Below are positions 16,702 to 44,987 of a stretch of DNA of 64,000 nt, in pieces. Origin of the DNA: Bacteroidaceae bacterium (GTDB lineage Bacteria > Bacteroidota > Bacteroidia > Bacteroidales > Bacteroidaceae); assembly GCA_017416805.1 (NCBI GenBank), contig JAFQBB010000036.1, forward strand, positions 150,902 through 214,901, written 5' to 3'. A program made the position numbers and the translations under genes. Each line of letters starts with the position of its first letter. Position 1 is the stretch's first letter. A model generated the notes under the pieces. It was not told the DNA's origin, ran no database searches, and worked only from the letters and a program-made list of their open reading frames with translations.

Positions 16702-19236
16702 TTATCGGACAATCATCTTTTTGCCGTTTATGATGTAGATACCGGCTGGAAGTTCCTCCTTAATGTTCTCTACAGGAATCTGTGTCTTTATGCGTACACC
16801 TTGCAGGGTATAGACGTCAACGGGTTTGGTTGGAGCACTGGAAGTTCCGCTCAATACCTCTTTGATGCCGCTTACTTCCTCAAGGAAGAAGAAGTCCCTC
16901 CATTGGTCTGCAGCCTGATAAGCCGCTTTGCTTCCTTCAACGACTTTCAGCGTACAGTTCCACTTGTTGATGTCGTCCAGTGCCTGTGTGCCGCATGTGG
17001 GAGGCACGGTGGCCAGACTCGTCAGTTGCGTCATGTTCGTGCAATCCGAGAATGCCTCCTGTCCGATGCTCGCCACATTCTTTCCGAAAGCAAAGCTCTC
17101 AAGGCTGCTACATCCGCTGAAGGCCCAGTCGCCAATGGTTGTCACTCCATTGCCTATGCTTACGTTCTTCAGTGCCGTACATCCATAGAACTCGTTGTCA
17201 TAGACTGCTTCCTCCTTGTCACCTATCACCACGCTGCGCAACGAGGTGTTGCGGTAGAAGGGCGAATACCCCTTGGCGCTCGAAGTGTTGTACGAAATCT
17301 TTCCACCGATATAGACGGAGTCAAGCGGACAGTCGGCAAACAAAGGCGAAGAGCCGTTTGAACCAAGCGTCAATGCCCCGGTGCGGTTTTCAATGATGAC
17401 ATCTGCTAAGGAGGAACAGTTCTGGAAGGTATAGTTTCCGATTGTTGCTACAGAATTGGAGATGCTAATGCACGCAAGGTCTGAACATCCCATAAACGTA
17501 TTGTCTCCTATACTTGTTACCGATTGCGGAATGACGATCTTTGGTAGCGAAGAACAACCACTGAAAGCATAGTTTCCTATGGTCGATACTTTGTTACCGA
17601 ATGTCACTTCCTTCAGCGATGAACATCCGCTGAATGTTTGTGGCTCAATCTTGGAGATTCCATTCCCAATCTTTAGTGCTTGGGCTGACGAACAACCATA
17701 GAAGGCTTTGGTTGCCAAATCTTTTACAGAATTGGGGATGGTGATATTCTCCAACGAAGAGCACCCACTGAAGGCCGACTCTCCAATGCCGGTCACTTCC
17801 TCGCCAATTGTGGCAGTTTTCATCTTGGCACATCCCTCAAACGCGTTGTTCTCTATCTTTCCTTTGTTGAAAATCGTACCTTCTTTTATGCCACACTTGG
17901 CAAAAGCATTTGATGCAACGTTTCCTACATTGGTCAATGTTACGGAATTCAGATTATCGCAACCATAAAAAGCCTCTGTTCCTATATAACCATTATTGCT
18001 GGCTGTTACAGTTTGAAGGTTGTCACAACCATAAAAAGCCTTTGTTCCTATATAACCTTTATTGCTGGCTGTTACAGTTTGGAGGTTGTCACAATCATAG
18101 AACGCTTGTAGACCGATATATCCTTGATTGGAAATTATTGCTTCTTTCAAACCGGAATTAGCGAACGCATTTGCTTCTATATTTCCCATGTTGGATAATG
18201 TTACAGTGTTCAGACTTTTGCAACCATAAAAAGCCTCTGTAGCTATATGACCTTTATTGCAGGCTGTTACAGTTTGGAGGTTGTCACAATTATAGAAAGC
18301 TTGATATGGGATATCTCCATTGTAACTGGCAGTTACATTTTTTACAAAATTATTCCCATAAAAAACATAAGGCTTGATATTCTGCACCTTCATCTCTATT
18401 CCTTTGAAAGATACGGTTGGAGCAATAGTTACATCTGATGCAGTACTGTCATAGTTGCAACTGATGGCATCGCATGTACGTGCTGCCATATCTACAGGTA
18501 CATATTTTACCCCATCAACATCGAACATGGAGCTAAGGTAAGGATAGACTTCCACATTACTTAGTTCTGTATATTGCTCATTGGCTACATAGTTTATCTT
18601 TCCCGAAGCTTCCTTATATCCATCCGGTGGGGTATTGGTCAGCCAAATTGTCTTTGCTGGTGAGTTGTTGATATAACCTGTGATAGTTGTCACTTCCGCA
18701 CCTATGGTAAGGGCTTTCAATGGTGAATCATCAAAATTACCAAAATCCAATTCCTTTCCTTCATAGGTCAGATTAGATAAATTAGAGCAACCATTGAATG
18801 CGTTATCTCCAATACTTGTCACAGAATTGGGGATAGTAATACTTGTAAGACCAGAGCAACCATTGAATGCGTTATCTCCAATACTTGTCACCGAATTGGA
18901 GATAGTGATGTGCGTAAGGTCAGAGCAACCATAGAACGCATAATCTCCAATGCTTGTCACAGAATTAGGAATAGTGATACTTGTAAGATCAAAGTTAAAA
19001 CTGAATGCGCTATTTCCAATACTCGTAACAGAATATGTCTTACTGGCAGACGTTACTGTATTTGGAATTATAACTGTTCCTGCATATCCATAAATATATC
19101 CATATGTCACTTCCACCGTCGAATTCGATGTAATATTGTAATAAATTCCATCCACCTTAAAATCGGCTGCTTTCGCTGAAATACTGCACAATAGCGTGGC
19201 TATTGTAAACAGCGTGGTTTTAAATATTTTTTTCAT
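16702..19236 (-). CDS. BspA-like leucine-rich-repeat surface protein
   Basis: The 844-residue protein has a signal peptide ('TTLFTIATLLCSISAKA'). Many LRR_5/BspA repeats of about 22-23 residues follow ('SVTSIGDNAFNGCSGLTSITIPN'), with a divergent mid-section of Asn/Gly-rich copies ('NLQTVTASNKGYIGTKAF'). It ends with a tail like Bacteroidales C-terminal sorting domains ('VYTLQGVRIKT...LPAGIYIINGKKMIVR'), which suggests export to the surface. BspA relatives bind host matrix proteins or other bacteria; that role is inferred. Its start overlaps the upstream unknown gene by 17 bases, so translation may be coupled. Confidence 0.92.
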   Translation of the reverse strand: MKKIFKTTLFTIATLLCSISAKAADFKVDGIYYNITSNSTVEVTYGYIYGYAGTVIIPNTVTSASKTYSVTSIGNSAFSFNFDLTSITIPNSVTSIGDYAFYGCSDLTHITISNSVTSIGDNAFNGCSGLTSITIPNSVTSIGDNAFNGCSNLSNLTYEGKELDFGNFDDSPLKALTIGAEVTTITGYINNSPAKTIWLTNTPPDGYKEASGKINYVANEQYTELSNVEVYPYLSSMFDVDGVKYVPVDMAARTCDAISCNYDSTASDVTIAPTVSFKGIEMKVQNIKPYVFYGNNFVKNVTASYNGDIPYQAFYNCDNLQTVTACNKGHIATEAFYGCKSLNTVTLSNMGNIEANAFANSGLKEAIISNQGYIGLQAFYDCDNLQTVTASNKGYIGTKAFYGCDNLQTVTASNNGYIGTEAFYGCDNLNSVTLTNVGNVASNAFAKCGIKEGTIFNKGKIENNAFEGCAKMKTATIGEEVTGIGESAFSGCSSLENITIPNSVKDLATKAFYGCSSAQALKIGNGISKIEPQTFSGCSSLKEVTFGNKVSTIGNYAFSGCSSLPKIVIPQSVTSIGDNTFMGCSDLACISISNSVATIGNYTFQNCSSLADVIIENRTGALTLGSNGSSPLFADCPLDSVYIGGKISYNTSSAKGYSPFYRNTSLRSVVIGDKEEAVYDNEFYGCTALKNVSIGNGVTTIGDWAFSGCSSLESFAFGKNVASIGQEAFSDCTNMTQLTSLATVPPTCGTQALDDINKWNCTLKVVEGSKAAYQAADQWRDFFFLEEVSGIKEVLSGTSSAPTKPVDVYTLQGVRIKTQIPVENIKEELPAGIYIINGKKMIVR
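17941..18330. repeat. 66-bp tandem repeats inside the LRR gene
   Basis: Near-identical DNA units carrying GGCTGTTACAGTTT recur at 18001 and 18067 (66-bp period), with a related copy at 18262. They encode 22-residue LRR units, and their DNA-level identity suggests recent duplication. Confidence 0.8.
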
Positions 19237-19666
19237 ATTCTACAATTTTATCAGTTACATCCTTTATAAATGAAGACCATACATCACATGAGACAAGACC
19301 TTTCATGCATATTACTTTTTTACCTGTTTTATTGTCATTGCGACAACACTGCAATTGATAACATTTTTGATTATTGCTTATGTTAATATTTTCAGGATGA
19401 CAGGGAAGGCATCTAAAATACCACATCAAATTATTAACATTCCTTTTTTTCTTTGAAGACGAAAATTTTATAGTATTTATGGGAATAGTATCAAGTTTAT
19501 TTAATACTTCTCTATTAGCCACCTCTAGTTTAACCCCAAACTCCTGAATCTCAGACAGACTTACAGGAACAGTTCTGTTTTTTACATGATATTCGAAGAA
19601 ACCTGTGAAAGGTTGGAAATCTTTATTGTACATTTCTTCTGGAATAAGACACTTTTTCTTTTTCAT
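19220..19666 (-). CDS. hypothetical cysteine-rich protein (148 aa)
   Basis: I do not recognise this protein. It has no signal peptide. Residues of about 85-125 carry a dense cysteine set ('CLPCHPENI', 'CYQLQCC', a later 'MKGLVSC') that could bind metal. The rest is charged and Lys/Asn-rich. It overlaps the LRR start by 17 bases and begins one base after the stop codon of the next gene upstream, so the three genes look like one transcript. The composition is AT-rich. Confidence 0.6.
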   Translation of the reverse strand: MKKKKCLIPEEMYNKDFQPFTGFFEYHVKNRTVPVSLSEIQEFGVKLEVANREVLNKLDTIPINTIKFSSSKKKRNVNNLMWYFRCLPCHPENINISNNQKCYQLQCCRNDNKTGKKVICMKGLVSCDVWSSFIKDVTDKIVEYEKNI

Positions 19667-19667
19667 T

Positions 19668-19946
19668 TCATTTGATGTTTTTTAGAGGATTTCTCTCTAT
19701 TACTTCTGACATTTGTTCTATTTCACAACTAAAGGTTTTTATCTCTTCTTCGGGCATTCCAACTTCTTTGTATAAGTTTACTAACCAATCAATCCGAGTG
19801 TACCTATCTTCACCCTCAAGATAAGAAGCCCACAAATAATCAATGATTTTTATCCATGAATACTTATAAGCTAACGGTTGCTGATTGTTTGTAGAAGGTT
19901 CTTGTGTTTCATGTTCAAGAATTGTTTTAGCTGTTTTTACATCCAT
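19668..19946 (-). CDS. hypothetical small protein (92 aa)
   Basis: I do not recognise this protein. The frame extends to a TTG at 20018, but the first ATG (19946) gives 92 residues beginning 'MDVKTAKTILEHETQ'. It is acidic and mostly helical, with no signal peptide or membrane segment. The stop is one base before the next gene's ATG, suggesting translational coupling with the cysteine-rich gene. Toxin-antitoxin function was considered, but no known fold is evident. Confidence 0.5.
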   Translation of the reverse strand: MDVKTAKTILEHETQEPSTNNQQPLAYKYSWIKIIDYLWASYLEGEDRYTRIDWLVNLYKEVGMPEEEIKTFSCEIEQMSEVIERNPLKNIK

Positions 19947-20016
19947 AATTATAAGTTTTTTGCCTACCACCTTCCCCCTCGCTTCAGCGGTTAATAATAA
20001 TGTATAGTATGGATAC

Positions 20017-20054
20017 AAAAAAGACGTGGGAGAAACTTTCGCCGCTTATCCCAC
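20017..20054 (-). terminator. terminator of the candidate RNA
   Basis: On the minus strand, GTGGGA (20054-20049) pairs with TCCCAC (20031-20026), and six T residues follow (20022-20017). A competing 7-bp pairing (20044-20050 with 20089-20095) shares two bases with this stem. Confidence 0.6.
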
Positions 20055-20402
20055 CATATCAGGCCTTCGCATTTGCCTTTCCAACCGAGATAAGCAACTT
20101 AGCCAGCCCACGCCATTGCGTATTATAATGGGATATGCCACAAAAGGAAACTGCATCGATACAAATACAGTCCTCCCTCTGGCATAAGGATATAATACAC
20201 CCTGCGTGGACGCTTCGTTGCGGTATCTTCCGTTGGATCAAGTTTGCGAAGTTTGATATGGTAGAAGATAACGTTCAGAAAACGTCCTTTATGTCCCGGA
20301 TGTGGCTCTGTGAAGGTACAAGACCTACGGTGAGCGACATGCACGGGGCATGTTCCATCGATGTCTTTGTGACCCACCCTGCCCTTAGACGGCTGGCTAA
20401 GT
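20017..20402 (-). ncRNA. candidate structured noncoding RNA, about 385 nt
   Basis: Read on the minus strand, a TATCTTTG box (20409-20416) is followed by a region with nested perfect helices. Positions 20391-20401 pair with 20098-20108 (11 bp) and close the molecule. Inside are 20337-20342 with 20348-20353, 20225-20230 with 20264-20269 (enclosing 20237-20241 with 20253-20257), and an arm of 20120-20127 with 20191-20198, 20135-20140 with 20180-20185, and 20145-20153 with 20168-20174. It ends in a GTGGGA/TCCCAC stem (20026-20031, 20049-20054) followed by a T run. I do not recognise it as tmRNA, RNase P, 6S or SRP RNA. The function is unknown. Confidence 0.6.
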
Positions 20403-20408
20403 CAGGGG

Positions 20409-20416
20409 CAAAGATA
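20409..20416 (-). promoter_or_regulatory. -7 box (TATCTTTG) for the candidate RNA
   Basis: Minus-strand TATCTTTG places transcription start near 20402, exactly where the closing helix of the candidate RNA begins. Confidence 0.6.
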
Positions 20417-20581
20417 CACATTTTAATGAAAAGTGAAGAATGAAGAGTGAAGAATTTTACGGAACATGTTGTTCCTGATGAAATAATGAACAATGGAAAA
20501 GGGTGAAACAGATGAGCTGTGCGGACTAATGAACAATTAATCTCTGAAAGAAGAAATTACCCATATGATATAATCATTTTC
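20417..20581. other. spacer between candidate RNA and dispersed element A
   Basis: No gene is seen. The stretch holds short GTGAAGAATGAAGA-type words (20430-20455) and a small inverted repeat GGAACA/TGTTCC near 20461-20475. Confidence 0.5.
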
Positions 20582-21172
20582 TTTTACACCTCACAGTAAT
20601 AAATCCTGTACGGCTATACTGTTTCTATTTTACCAGAGGGAAAGGCTGTGCAATGGAAGCATTTCTGCATAAACATACATAAGGATGGAGGGAGGACAGG
20701 TTGAGGAGAGAGGTTGCAAATGGGTGTTTCCGCTCCTCCTATCCTAAACATCCGCTGAAGCGTAGGAGAAGTTCCGCTTGTGCGCAGTTGCGCACCGGCG
20801 GAAGTTTAGGAGAGCATCGGCGGACGTTTAGGAGCGATTCCCCGGACGTTTAGGATAGGTGACCATAAAAAGCCTCGTCAAAACGATGATTGCTACCGCT
20901 CTTGCAACAAGTCCAAATGTATAATTATGACACATTCTGCATAAACATGCAGAACTGACCGCGCGAGAATCACGTATATGGGCAACGGTTTTCTTTCGGA
21001 GAGAAAAAGACGAAAATCAGAATCAATCCACAAGAATCTGATAATCAGCAATAAAAGCATGCTCTTCAAAATATTCCCATAAGGTTGGTTTAACCTCAGG
21101 AGAATGTCTGGATAAGGAGACTTTTTTCTATTTCTTTACATCAGAAATGATAAAATGTTTACAAATTGACAG
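20582..21172 (+). repeat. dispersed noncoding element, copy A (~590 bp)
   Basis: The segment is similar, in blocks, to the reverse complement of 46689-47260. Shared blocks in order: AAATCCTG, CTGTTTCTAT, CATTTCTG..ATAAACATACAT, CCTAAACATCC, GCGTAGGAGAAGTTCCGCT, GGACGTTTAGGA, AAATGTATAATTAT, GCGCGAGAATCACGTATATG (20961-20980), TTTTCTTTCGGAGAG and a TTTCTTTACAT end. Inside, 20741-20754 can pair with 20843-20856. No open frame is shared by the copies. Confidence 0.8.
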
Positions 21173-44096: not shown

Positions 44097-44987
44097 CTAG
44101 AATTTACATGTTTCCATTTTCTCCACCTGTTCTTCCAATTCGTCAGGCAGTGTATGGAAAAAGTCCATACCGGTGACTGTTTCCACCTTATCTACAGATA
44201 CGGCATAATCAAAAAGTTCCTTATCGCAATCATCATTGGGAAAAATGAAACCGATAGCTTGTGGTTCACTACCGCCCCAAAGAATGACCTTGAAGAAATG
44301 GTCGGGTACCGTAACCTTATTTTTCCCTATCCGTTTCGATTGTTTCCCATTCTCCACTATGGGGCCACATACAATGTAAAGAGTGTGACCTTTTGCAGCC
44401 CATTCCCGACAATTCTCCTCCAAAATCCTCCAATCTCCCCTATTCAGGTTGGGTGCTTGCGGACAAATGTTACTGAGGTAGAAAGATTCCTGCATTGCCT
44501 GTTCGTCCCACTTCATGTCTCCTGCCGGAGCCATATGGCCGCGGTCGTAACGGGCACGATAGTAGTCCGCATCCGTAGCGCGATGCGACTCGTCCAAATC
44601 GGGGTCAGGCAGAAAATCATCTGCCCGTTTCACCTTTCCCTTAGCCCGTTCAGGAGTGAGTGTCCATGCTACCCAATTCGGTACTTTCCAAACCTTGTTA
44701 TATGAAACAGTGAACCCCGTACGTTTTAATACCAACTCATCTTCTTCTCTGATAACAGGAAGTTTCACTCCCTCTATAAACTTTGTATCATTATTGCAGA
44801 ACAAATCATTTCTTCCATCATGAATGTTTTGTATATTATTTGCAAACAACTCATTTTTATTTAATGTCTGCTTTTCACTACGGTCGGTTATACGCTGTAT
44901 GGCTGTTGCTGCTACAAATACGACACAAAGTACGGCCAATGTGGACAATCTCATTTTCTTGCCCCTCTTTTTTCTTCTTGCCATCAT
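44097..44987 (-). CDS. DNA/RNA non-specific endonuclease (NUC1 type)
   Basis: The 296-residue protein has an N-terminal hydrophobic anchor or signal ('LSTLAVLCVVFVAATAI', about 14-30), so it acts outside the cytoplasm. The beta-beta-alpha-metal signature 'YDRGHMAPAGDM' lies near residues 147-158 with the catalytic His in RGH, followed by 'FYLSNICPQAPNLNRGDWRILEENCREW', whose Asn binds the metal. The family degrades DNA and RNA for nutrition or defence. It ends 1 base from the convergent GT4 stop region. Confidence 0.93.
   Translation of the reverse strand: MMARRKKRGKKMRLSTLAVLCVVFVAATAIQRITDRSEKQTLNKNELFANNIQNIHDGRNDLFCNNDTKFIEGVKLPVIREEDELVLKRTGFTVSYNKVWKVPNWVAWTLTPERAKGKVKRADDFLPDPDLDESHRATDADYYRARYDRGHMAPAGDMKWDEQAMQESFYLSNICPQAPNLNRGDWRILEENCREWAAKGHTLYIVCGPIVENGKQSKRIGKNKVTVPDHFFKVILWGGSEPQAIGFIFPNDDCDKELFDYAVSVDKVETVTGMDFFHTLPDELEEQVEKMETCKF

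Follow-up and report, generated by a model that had tools for sequence, protein, structure and literature searches.

A very large leader RNA present in many copies in Bacteroidales, a candidate transcription attenuator

The DNA analysed here, hereafter the window, is a stretch of 64,000 nucleotides from a Bacteroidaceae bacterium (assembly GCA_017416805.1, contig JAFQBB010000036.1, positions 150,902 to 214,901). Its minus strand carries a predicted RNA of ~386 nt (20402-20017), whose 5′ end is placed from a promoter box and whose 3′ end is placed from a U-run, followed on the same strand by three open reading frames (Table 1). Some 330 nt upstream of the promoter box, positions 20748-20857 of the window carry a 22-nt repeat (GCACCGGCGGAAGTTTAGGAGA type) in four direct copies, of which three stand in tandem; inverted repeats flank them.

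Table 1. Predicted features of the leader RNA and of the genes that follow it (window coordinates).
Feature	Position	Strand	Details	Basis
-7 promoter box	20409-20416	minus	TATCTTTG	sequence; motif statistics over members
Whole leader RNA	20017-20402	minus		sequence, folding, 10 copies in own genome
Helix P1	20391-20402 / 20097-20108	minus	12 bp, perfect	permutation
Helix H0	20279-20287 / 20208-20216	minus	5′ strand GGACGUUUU, 3′ strand GAAGCGUCC	permutation, z 12.6
Alternative hairpin H1	20271-20285	minus	overlaps H0 5′ strand	permutation, z 7.8 (132 members)
Helix H2	20264-20270 / 20224-20230	minus	UAUCUUC / GAAGAUA	permutation, z 13.8 (132 members)
Hairpin H3	20237-20257	minus	conserved loop CUUCGCAA	permutation, z 13.0 (132 members)
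Variable arm H4	20120-20198	minus	20191-20198/20120-20127 plus 20181-20186/20134-20139	sequence
Long-range helix Pk	20232-20237 / 20080-20085	minus	UCCAAC / GUUGGA, the latter in the P_a loop	permutation
Terminal helix T	20107-20114 / 20023-20030	minus	5′ strand GGCGUGGG	covariation
Helix P_a	20087-20095 / 20044-20052	minus	5′ strand GCUUAUCUC	covariation
P_a 3′ strand	20044-20054	minus	GGGAUAAGC; GUGGGA 20049-20054 also altT partner of 20026-20031	covariation
Hairpin P_b	20061-20078	minus	AGGC/GCCU; loop near-invariant	96.8% of cells paired
Strand T3	20023-20034	minus	UUCUCCCACGUC; pairs with T5 20107-20114, P_a 3′ strand 20049-20054 or H5 loop 19972-19978	
U-run of terminator	20017-20022	minus		sequence
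Post-terminator hairpin H5	19962-19988	minus	loop GGGGGAA 19972-19978 pairs with T3 20028-20034	permutation
First downstream ORF	19668-19946	minus	92 aa	holding frame without Pfam match
Second downstream ORF	19220-19666	minus	148 aa	no Pfam match
Third downstream ORF	16702-19236	minus	844-aa BspA-type leucine-rich repeat protein	Pfam LRR_5

The initial annotation had proposed a structured RNA with a promoter-like box and a terminator-like end on this strand, and both the sequence and the folding bear this out. The minimum free energy of the window RNA is -151.7 kcal/mol, compared with -112.5 (sd 6.0) for 100 dinucleotide shuffles, none of which folds as low (z -6.55). The plus strand of the locus also folds better than its shuffles (z -4.27), and 20 hand-picked members of the family described below, including the ten copies of the same genome, give z values from -3.6 to -10.1 with 40 shuffles each. 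Leader length ranges from 284 to 386 nt in the 20 members measured. The promoter box lies where it had been claimed and is of the Bacteroidetes TAnnTTTG type; of 161 members, 150 carry this motif at a distance of 150-345 nt upstream of the 3′ domain, compared with 17 of 161 once the letters are shuffled.

Most of the helices listed in that annotation can be recognized. The 11-bp pairing between the two ends extends to 12 perfect base pairs (P1), the two-step arm corresponds to H2 plus H3, and the three-step arm to the two stems of H4. The GTGGGA/TCCCAC stem taken for the end of the RNA has to be reassigned: both motifs and the T-run are present, but the stem lying directly against the U-run consists of GGCGTGGG (20107-20114) and CCCACGTC (20023-20030), and GTGGGA is an alternative partner of the same 3′ strand. 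The 6-bp arms of a hairpin at 20337-20353 are readable, but no counterpart was seen by eye in the other 11 printed copies. This hairpin lies within 20300-20390, where the 5′ region of the window copy is longer than in most printed relatives. A generic terminator scan of the window reported none; it missed helix T because this stem closes on a 76-nt folded domain, well beyond the loop limit of 8 in the scan. The minimum free energy fold of the window 3′ domain (-41.1 kcal/mol) includes T, P_a and P_b.

The RNA belongs to a family. Twelve copies compared by eye, two of them from the same genome, have the TTTG box, a conserved 3′ block and the T-run in common. A degenerate pattern matches at least 119 stretches among genome contigs, of which at least 112 are kept after a 3′ filter (7 of 119 failed); among the matches listed with titles (80 loci), 6 failed this filter. 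Three kept loci are labelled as Clostridia, Pseudobutyrivibrio or Lachnospiraceae metagenome-assembled genomes and are possibly mis-binned. A covariance model of the 3′ domain (R1), built from 66 sequences, recovers the window copy at 20017-20115 with an E value of 7.4e-16 and nothing else in the window below E 0.08, the match at 44546-44637 on the plus strand (E 0.083) being at chance level. Ten R1 copies are found in the same genome, and 54 of 120 genomes of relatives hold up to 11 copies each; across the order, R1 occurs in 83 of 392 sampled genomes and 47 of 205 genera, all copy counts from sets of more than 40 genomes being lower bounds as these were searched with stricter filters. Among 198 genomes sampled from the phylum, only the genome of the window matched (0 of the 197 others). 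BLASTN, which the initial annotation had suggested, picks up related sequences in 9 of 61 genomes, including that of the window. The R1 family is spread through Bacteroidales in a patchy, multi-copy manner. Four further loci (L248, L240, L236 and L245) have diverged leaders with a low or no R1 score before XRE-like genes; these leaders resemble R1, so that the counts may understate the extent of the family.

Substitutions in relatives keep the helices of the 3′ domain through compensatory change rather than break them, and most other helices pass permutation tests. In an alignment of 100 members fitted to the R1 model (8 of 108 rows were antisense and left out), 98.4% of 1997 cells are paired, and compensatory change is seen at 15 of the 20 pairs. 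In 139 cells both sides have changed, compared with 39.6 in shuffles, and none of 500 shuffles reaches any of five measures; members were first collected by sequence pattern, so that some of the conservation comes from the way they were selected. Helix T is paired in 98.0% of cells, with compensatory change at 6 of 8 pairs, and P_a in 99.8%, with compensatory change at 7 of 8 pairs. The strongest covariation falls in P_a, as UA/CG and AU/GC swaps at two adjacent pairs. The first alignment, of 66 pattern-selected sequences, unfitted and with the pseudoknot included, had given 97.1% paired cells and 25 double-changed cells compared with 11.0. A candidate pseudoknot between the P_b loop and upstream sequence is paired in 93.4% of cells, yet without covariation.

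RNAalifold, applied to a MAFFT alignment of 85 core sequences, predicts no pairs, and the 5′ domain therefore rests on alignment-free permutation tests, which ignore kinship and cover the 132 of 172 members that carry the anchors (40 do not). Helix P1 reaches a z value of 12.4 over 155 members, and the first two bases of its 3′ strand are also used by helix T. H0 and H1 partly exclude each other because of their common strand. The loop positions of H3 are invariant or almost so in 85 sequences, these members having been found with a pattern for that loop. A CCACGU/ACGUGG pairing, tried as an antiterminator arm, was rejected (z 0.0). The long-range helix Pk joins the 3′ flank of H3 to the loop of P_a with a z value of 41.9 over the same 132 members and a median run of 8 bp. 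The run reaches at least 6 bp in 126 of the 132, among which there are 119 distinct 5′ strands. Within the genome of the window, the mean Pk score of the ten copies is 18.4 when each is matched to its own partner and 9.5 against the partners of other copies, and 8.9% of these cross pairs reach the lowest own score.

Strand T3, the 3′ strand of helix T, has two further predicted partners: the 3′ strand of P_a (altT) and the loop of hairpin H5, which lies past the terminator. The altT pairing is found in 81.6% of cells compared with 78.3% in shuffles, with 25 cells changed on both sides compared with 9.9 (0 of 500 shuffles); two of the five measures are unremarkable, being reached by 103 and 146 of 500 shuffles. 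The H5 loop pairs with T3 at a mean score of 14.87, against 12.56 for permuted combinations (sd 0.16, maximum 13.1 of 200), over 156 scored members, the pattern having recognized no terminator in 13 of 172. A slightly wider pattern gave 164 members, among which the H5 match exceeds a score of 13 in 119 and is absent or weak in 45. Over the 119, which were chosen for a good loop match, the H5 stem has a z value of 9.2 and an 8-mer control compares 11.0 with 16.6. Members with a variant T3 also carry changes in one or more of its partners: for altT, CUUCAC goes with GUGAAG in L188 and UCUCAC with GUGAGA in L173, and for H5, AGACACCU goes with AGGUGUCU in L165. The three predicted pairings of T3 are mutually exclusive, which is the anatomy of a switch. 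The features expected of an attenuator are thus found in a terminator-like stem abutting a U-run and in exclusive pairings of one of its strands, the P_a partner being only partly supported.

The initial annotation had implied a functional RNA standing on its own, and here the comparison leads elsewhere: the RNA is rather a multi-copy leader directly before same-strand genes, and in 119 of 164 members the conserved unit does not end at the terminator but takes in a further hairpin ahead of the start codon. Of 159 members, 115 have a same-strand open reading frame of at least 100 aa whose ATG lies 15-140 nt beyond the RNA, compared with 24 of 146 in a divergent upstream control, and the median distance from the RNA end to the next start codon is 70 nt. 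The RNA thus has the constrained relation to a neighbouring gene that a stand-alone small RNA would lack. When shorter frames are admitted, a downstream frame of 35 aa or more begins within 260 nt in 166 of 172 members, and 17 of 172 lack one of 40 aa or more in the range of 15-140 nt; a few of the chosen frames are probably wrong (e.g. L167 and L200), and the pooled set of 172 holds some places twice (e.g. L028/L162 and L052/L151).

The proteins encoded downstream are mixed. In 150 of the 151 non-redundant ones, scanned after being cut at 330 aa, 71 Pfam families are present. Among the families listed are BspA-type repeats (11 members), Cys-Xaa-Xaa-Xaa radical SAM targets (10), sigma-70 family factors (3), DUF2971 (3), SPFH (2) and one UpxY antiterminator. 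TIGR04117 matches 10 of the 150 proteins, and many of the proteins are apparent lipoproteins by eye. Cys-rich peptides with a RREFFKKAAKGALPI-like start follow the leader in L055, L153, L156, L043, L051 and others, and in L006 and L014 the next frame resembles, by eye, a radical SAM protein. As the downstream genes have no evident common function, they name no signal.

A second leader family came to light through one of these genes. A search with the 70-aa XRE-like protein encoded after one R1 copy of the same genome gave matches in 21 of 61 genomes. Among 30 XRE-like loci, R1 clearly matches upstream of the gene in 13 (E<=2.5e-6), and eight others have a different conserved leader, for which a model (R2) was built from 8 sequences. 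R2 has no match in the window; it is found in 56 of 120 relatives and at 7 places in the genome of the window, although inverted repeats of other kinds may account for the weaker matches and for those in genomes that have many of them. Copies of R2 were noted on contigs C10, C60, C54, C39, C56 and C6 of that genome, G000 (L263-L268), and at L224, L229, L227, L242, L249, L235, L237 and L244. G008, a near-complete genome of the same genus, has two R2 matches and no R1 match. The R2 RNA ends in a U-run near the start codon, most start codons lying within ~20 nt of the RNA end, and one closing helix shows as many as five types of pair among 26 members in an alignment fitted to R2 (2 of 28 rows were antisense and left out). 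By eye, the genes that follow it include XRE-like, BspA-like and lipoprotein genes. Rfam gives no match over the R2 leaders scanned, with two borderline DUF805b matches and a tRNA elsewhere in the loci. R1 and R2 are both present in 40 of 120 genomes (54 and 56 each; Fisher p 5.6e-8, kinship ignored).

Several known systems resemble R1 in part. Riboswitch and attenuator leaders are likewise structured RNAs with conserved loops before a gene, with a terminator-like stem and exclusive pairings; R1 differs from them in being very large, in preceding many unrelated gene families and in having one partner of the terminator strand past the terminator. T-box leaders are also large and multi-domain, with exclusive terminator and antiterminator pairings. 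In size, domains and exclusive pairings R1 is like them, but neither the window nor 16 loci of relatives match their model, and the downstream families listed for R1 (25 of 71 and 25 of 79) include none related to aminoacyl-tRNA. ROOL, GOLLD and OLE are large ornate bacterial RNAs, as is R1, and give no Rfam match here; they are not known to act as leaders. ROOL env-120 measures 659 nt according to the part of PMC12286853 consulted. Rfam 15, a search also suggested by the initial annotation, gives no match at the gathering score in the 64-kb window or in 16 loci of relatives, and two sub-threshold matches only at E<=10 across 19850-20550. The Bacteroidales-1 RNA (RF01693), similarly known from Bacteroidales (PMC2864571, in part), has a model of 179 positions that finds no match in the window. 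Its sole match in the same genome is on another contig (G000:C32:18068-18237, minus strand), where it lies a few hundred nt upstream of the R1 copy L183, on the same strand.

In searches of the open-access literature, preprints and supplements aside, no paper was recognized as describing the R1 family, nor was a description recognized in the consulted parts of PMC2864571, PMC7366714, PMC11109978, PMC6429828, PMC12286853 and PMC7324362. The second of these gives, for Bacteroides thetaiotaomicron, a 5′ UTR of more than 100 nt in 13.5% of mRNAs, ~2% of which have a predicted putative riboswitch (PMC7366714, excerpt). The term undescribed, used by the initial annotation, holds for Rfam 15 and this literature; it is less secure with respect to a catalogue of 3161 candidate structured RNAs, 15 of them in the potential 5′ UTR of XRE genes, of which some may, from the part consulted, be fragments of the R1 and R2 families (PMC8040213). 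One of its candidates, HMP2_1881, is 108 bp long, mostly from Bacteroidetes, situated near radical SAM domains and expressed in 13 of the 13 times it was found (PMC8040213, same part). By description, the radical SAM context resembles that of R1, 10 of whose 150 downstream proteins are radical SAM target peptides, and HMP2_1881 could be a fragment of the R1 3′ domain, or unrelated. If such candidates of this partly consulted catalogue are fragments of these families, they would supply the first expression evidence.

Comparative sequence evidence supports the predicted helices, the promoter box, the terminator-like end, the position before genes and the three partners of T3. The window RNA is probably an undescribed RNA control switch, and on balance we lean towards regarding it as one copy of a multi-copy, very large Bacteroidales leader family that would act as a transcription attenuator. 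Each leader would be made from its own promoter box. Its 5′ domain (P1, H0/H1, H2, H3) would be tied by the copy-specific Pk to the 3′ domain (P_a, P_b), and helix T would close the leader against the U-run, shortly before the next start codon. With the domains folded and locked, T would form and transcription would stop; where a signal or factor weakened the fold, the 3′ strand of P_a, and then H5 once transcribed, would hold T3 and the gene would be read. Attenuation with the folded state off would be the simplest reading of the data, and its translational version the main rival.

According to that version, the polymerase reads through and the pairing of the H5 loop with T3 opens or closes the access of the ribosome. 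The location of H5 between the U-run and the start codon, with only 15 nt to the ATG in the window, fits such a model, as do the covariation of its loop with T3 and the R2 start codons mostly within ~20 nt of the RNA end. The U-run directly after helix T has the look of an intrinsic terminator, however, and 45 of 164 members are without a good H5 match, so we hold control of translation to be possible but unlikely. It is rather improbable, too, that the RNA is a stand-alone gene acting in trans with incidental neighbours. Its own promoter box, compact fold and U-run end would suit such a gene, and a CUCCC near the 3′ end could pair in trans, but the excess of same-strand genes over the divergent control and the hairpin past the terminator that co-varies with T3 both argue against it.

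We see very little prospect of a MITE-like mobile or repetitive DNA element whose hairpins are incidental. Up to 11 copies per genome and the patchy presence in 54 of 120 genomes recall such elements, but the copies keep their base pairs though their sequences differ, and the promoter box, the U-run and the gene orientation are strand-specific. No member was found in phages with the window as query or in plasmids with one relative as query, and a pattern search of viral sequences gave four matches, none of which passes the 3′ filter. A coding region or decayed gene can practically be set aside, since the open frames of 60-102 aa that overlap the RNA on both strands include no Pfam match in the two longest (102 and 84 aa), as expected of the by-products for which the initial annotation took them, and the helices are kept through compensatory change. 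A reading of the plus strand as a transposase zinc ribbon was dropped; the plus-strand open reading frame scanned has no Pfam match, though it is in a different frame from that reading.

Several RNA classes are known to sense one signal, as do the c-di-GMP and guanidine riboswitches. As two unrelated RNAs precede similar genes, R1 and R2 might be separate sensors of one global Bacteroidales signal, R1 being an unusually large switch with three partners for T3, one of them past the terminator, and a lock helix that differs in nearly every copy; we put this forward as a speculative and rather doubtful extension of attenuation by R1.

Bacteroidales are major bacteria of the gut and rumen. If the attenuator reading is true, they would possess a regulon-scale layer of RNA control absent from Rfam, placed before surface proteins, radical SAM target peptides, sigma factors and small regulators. 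The R1 copies would then offer ready-made natural variants for the study of one terminator strand with several partners.
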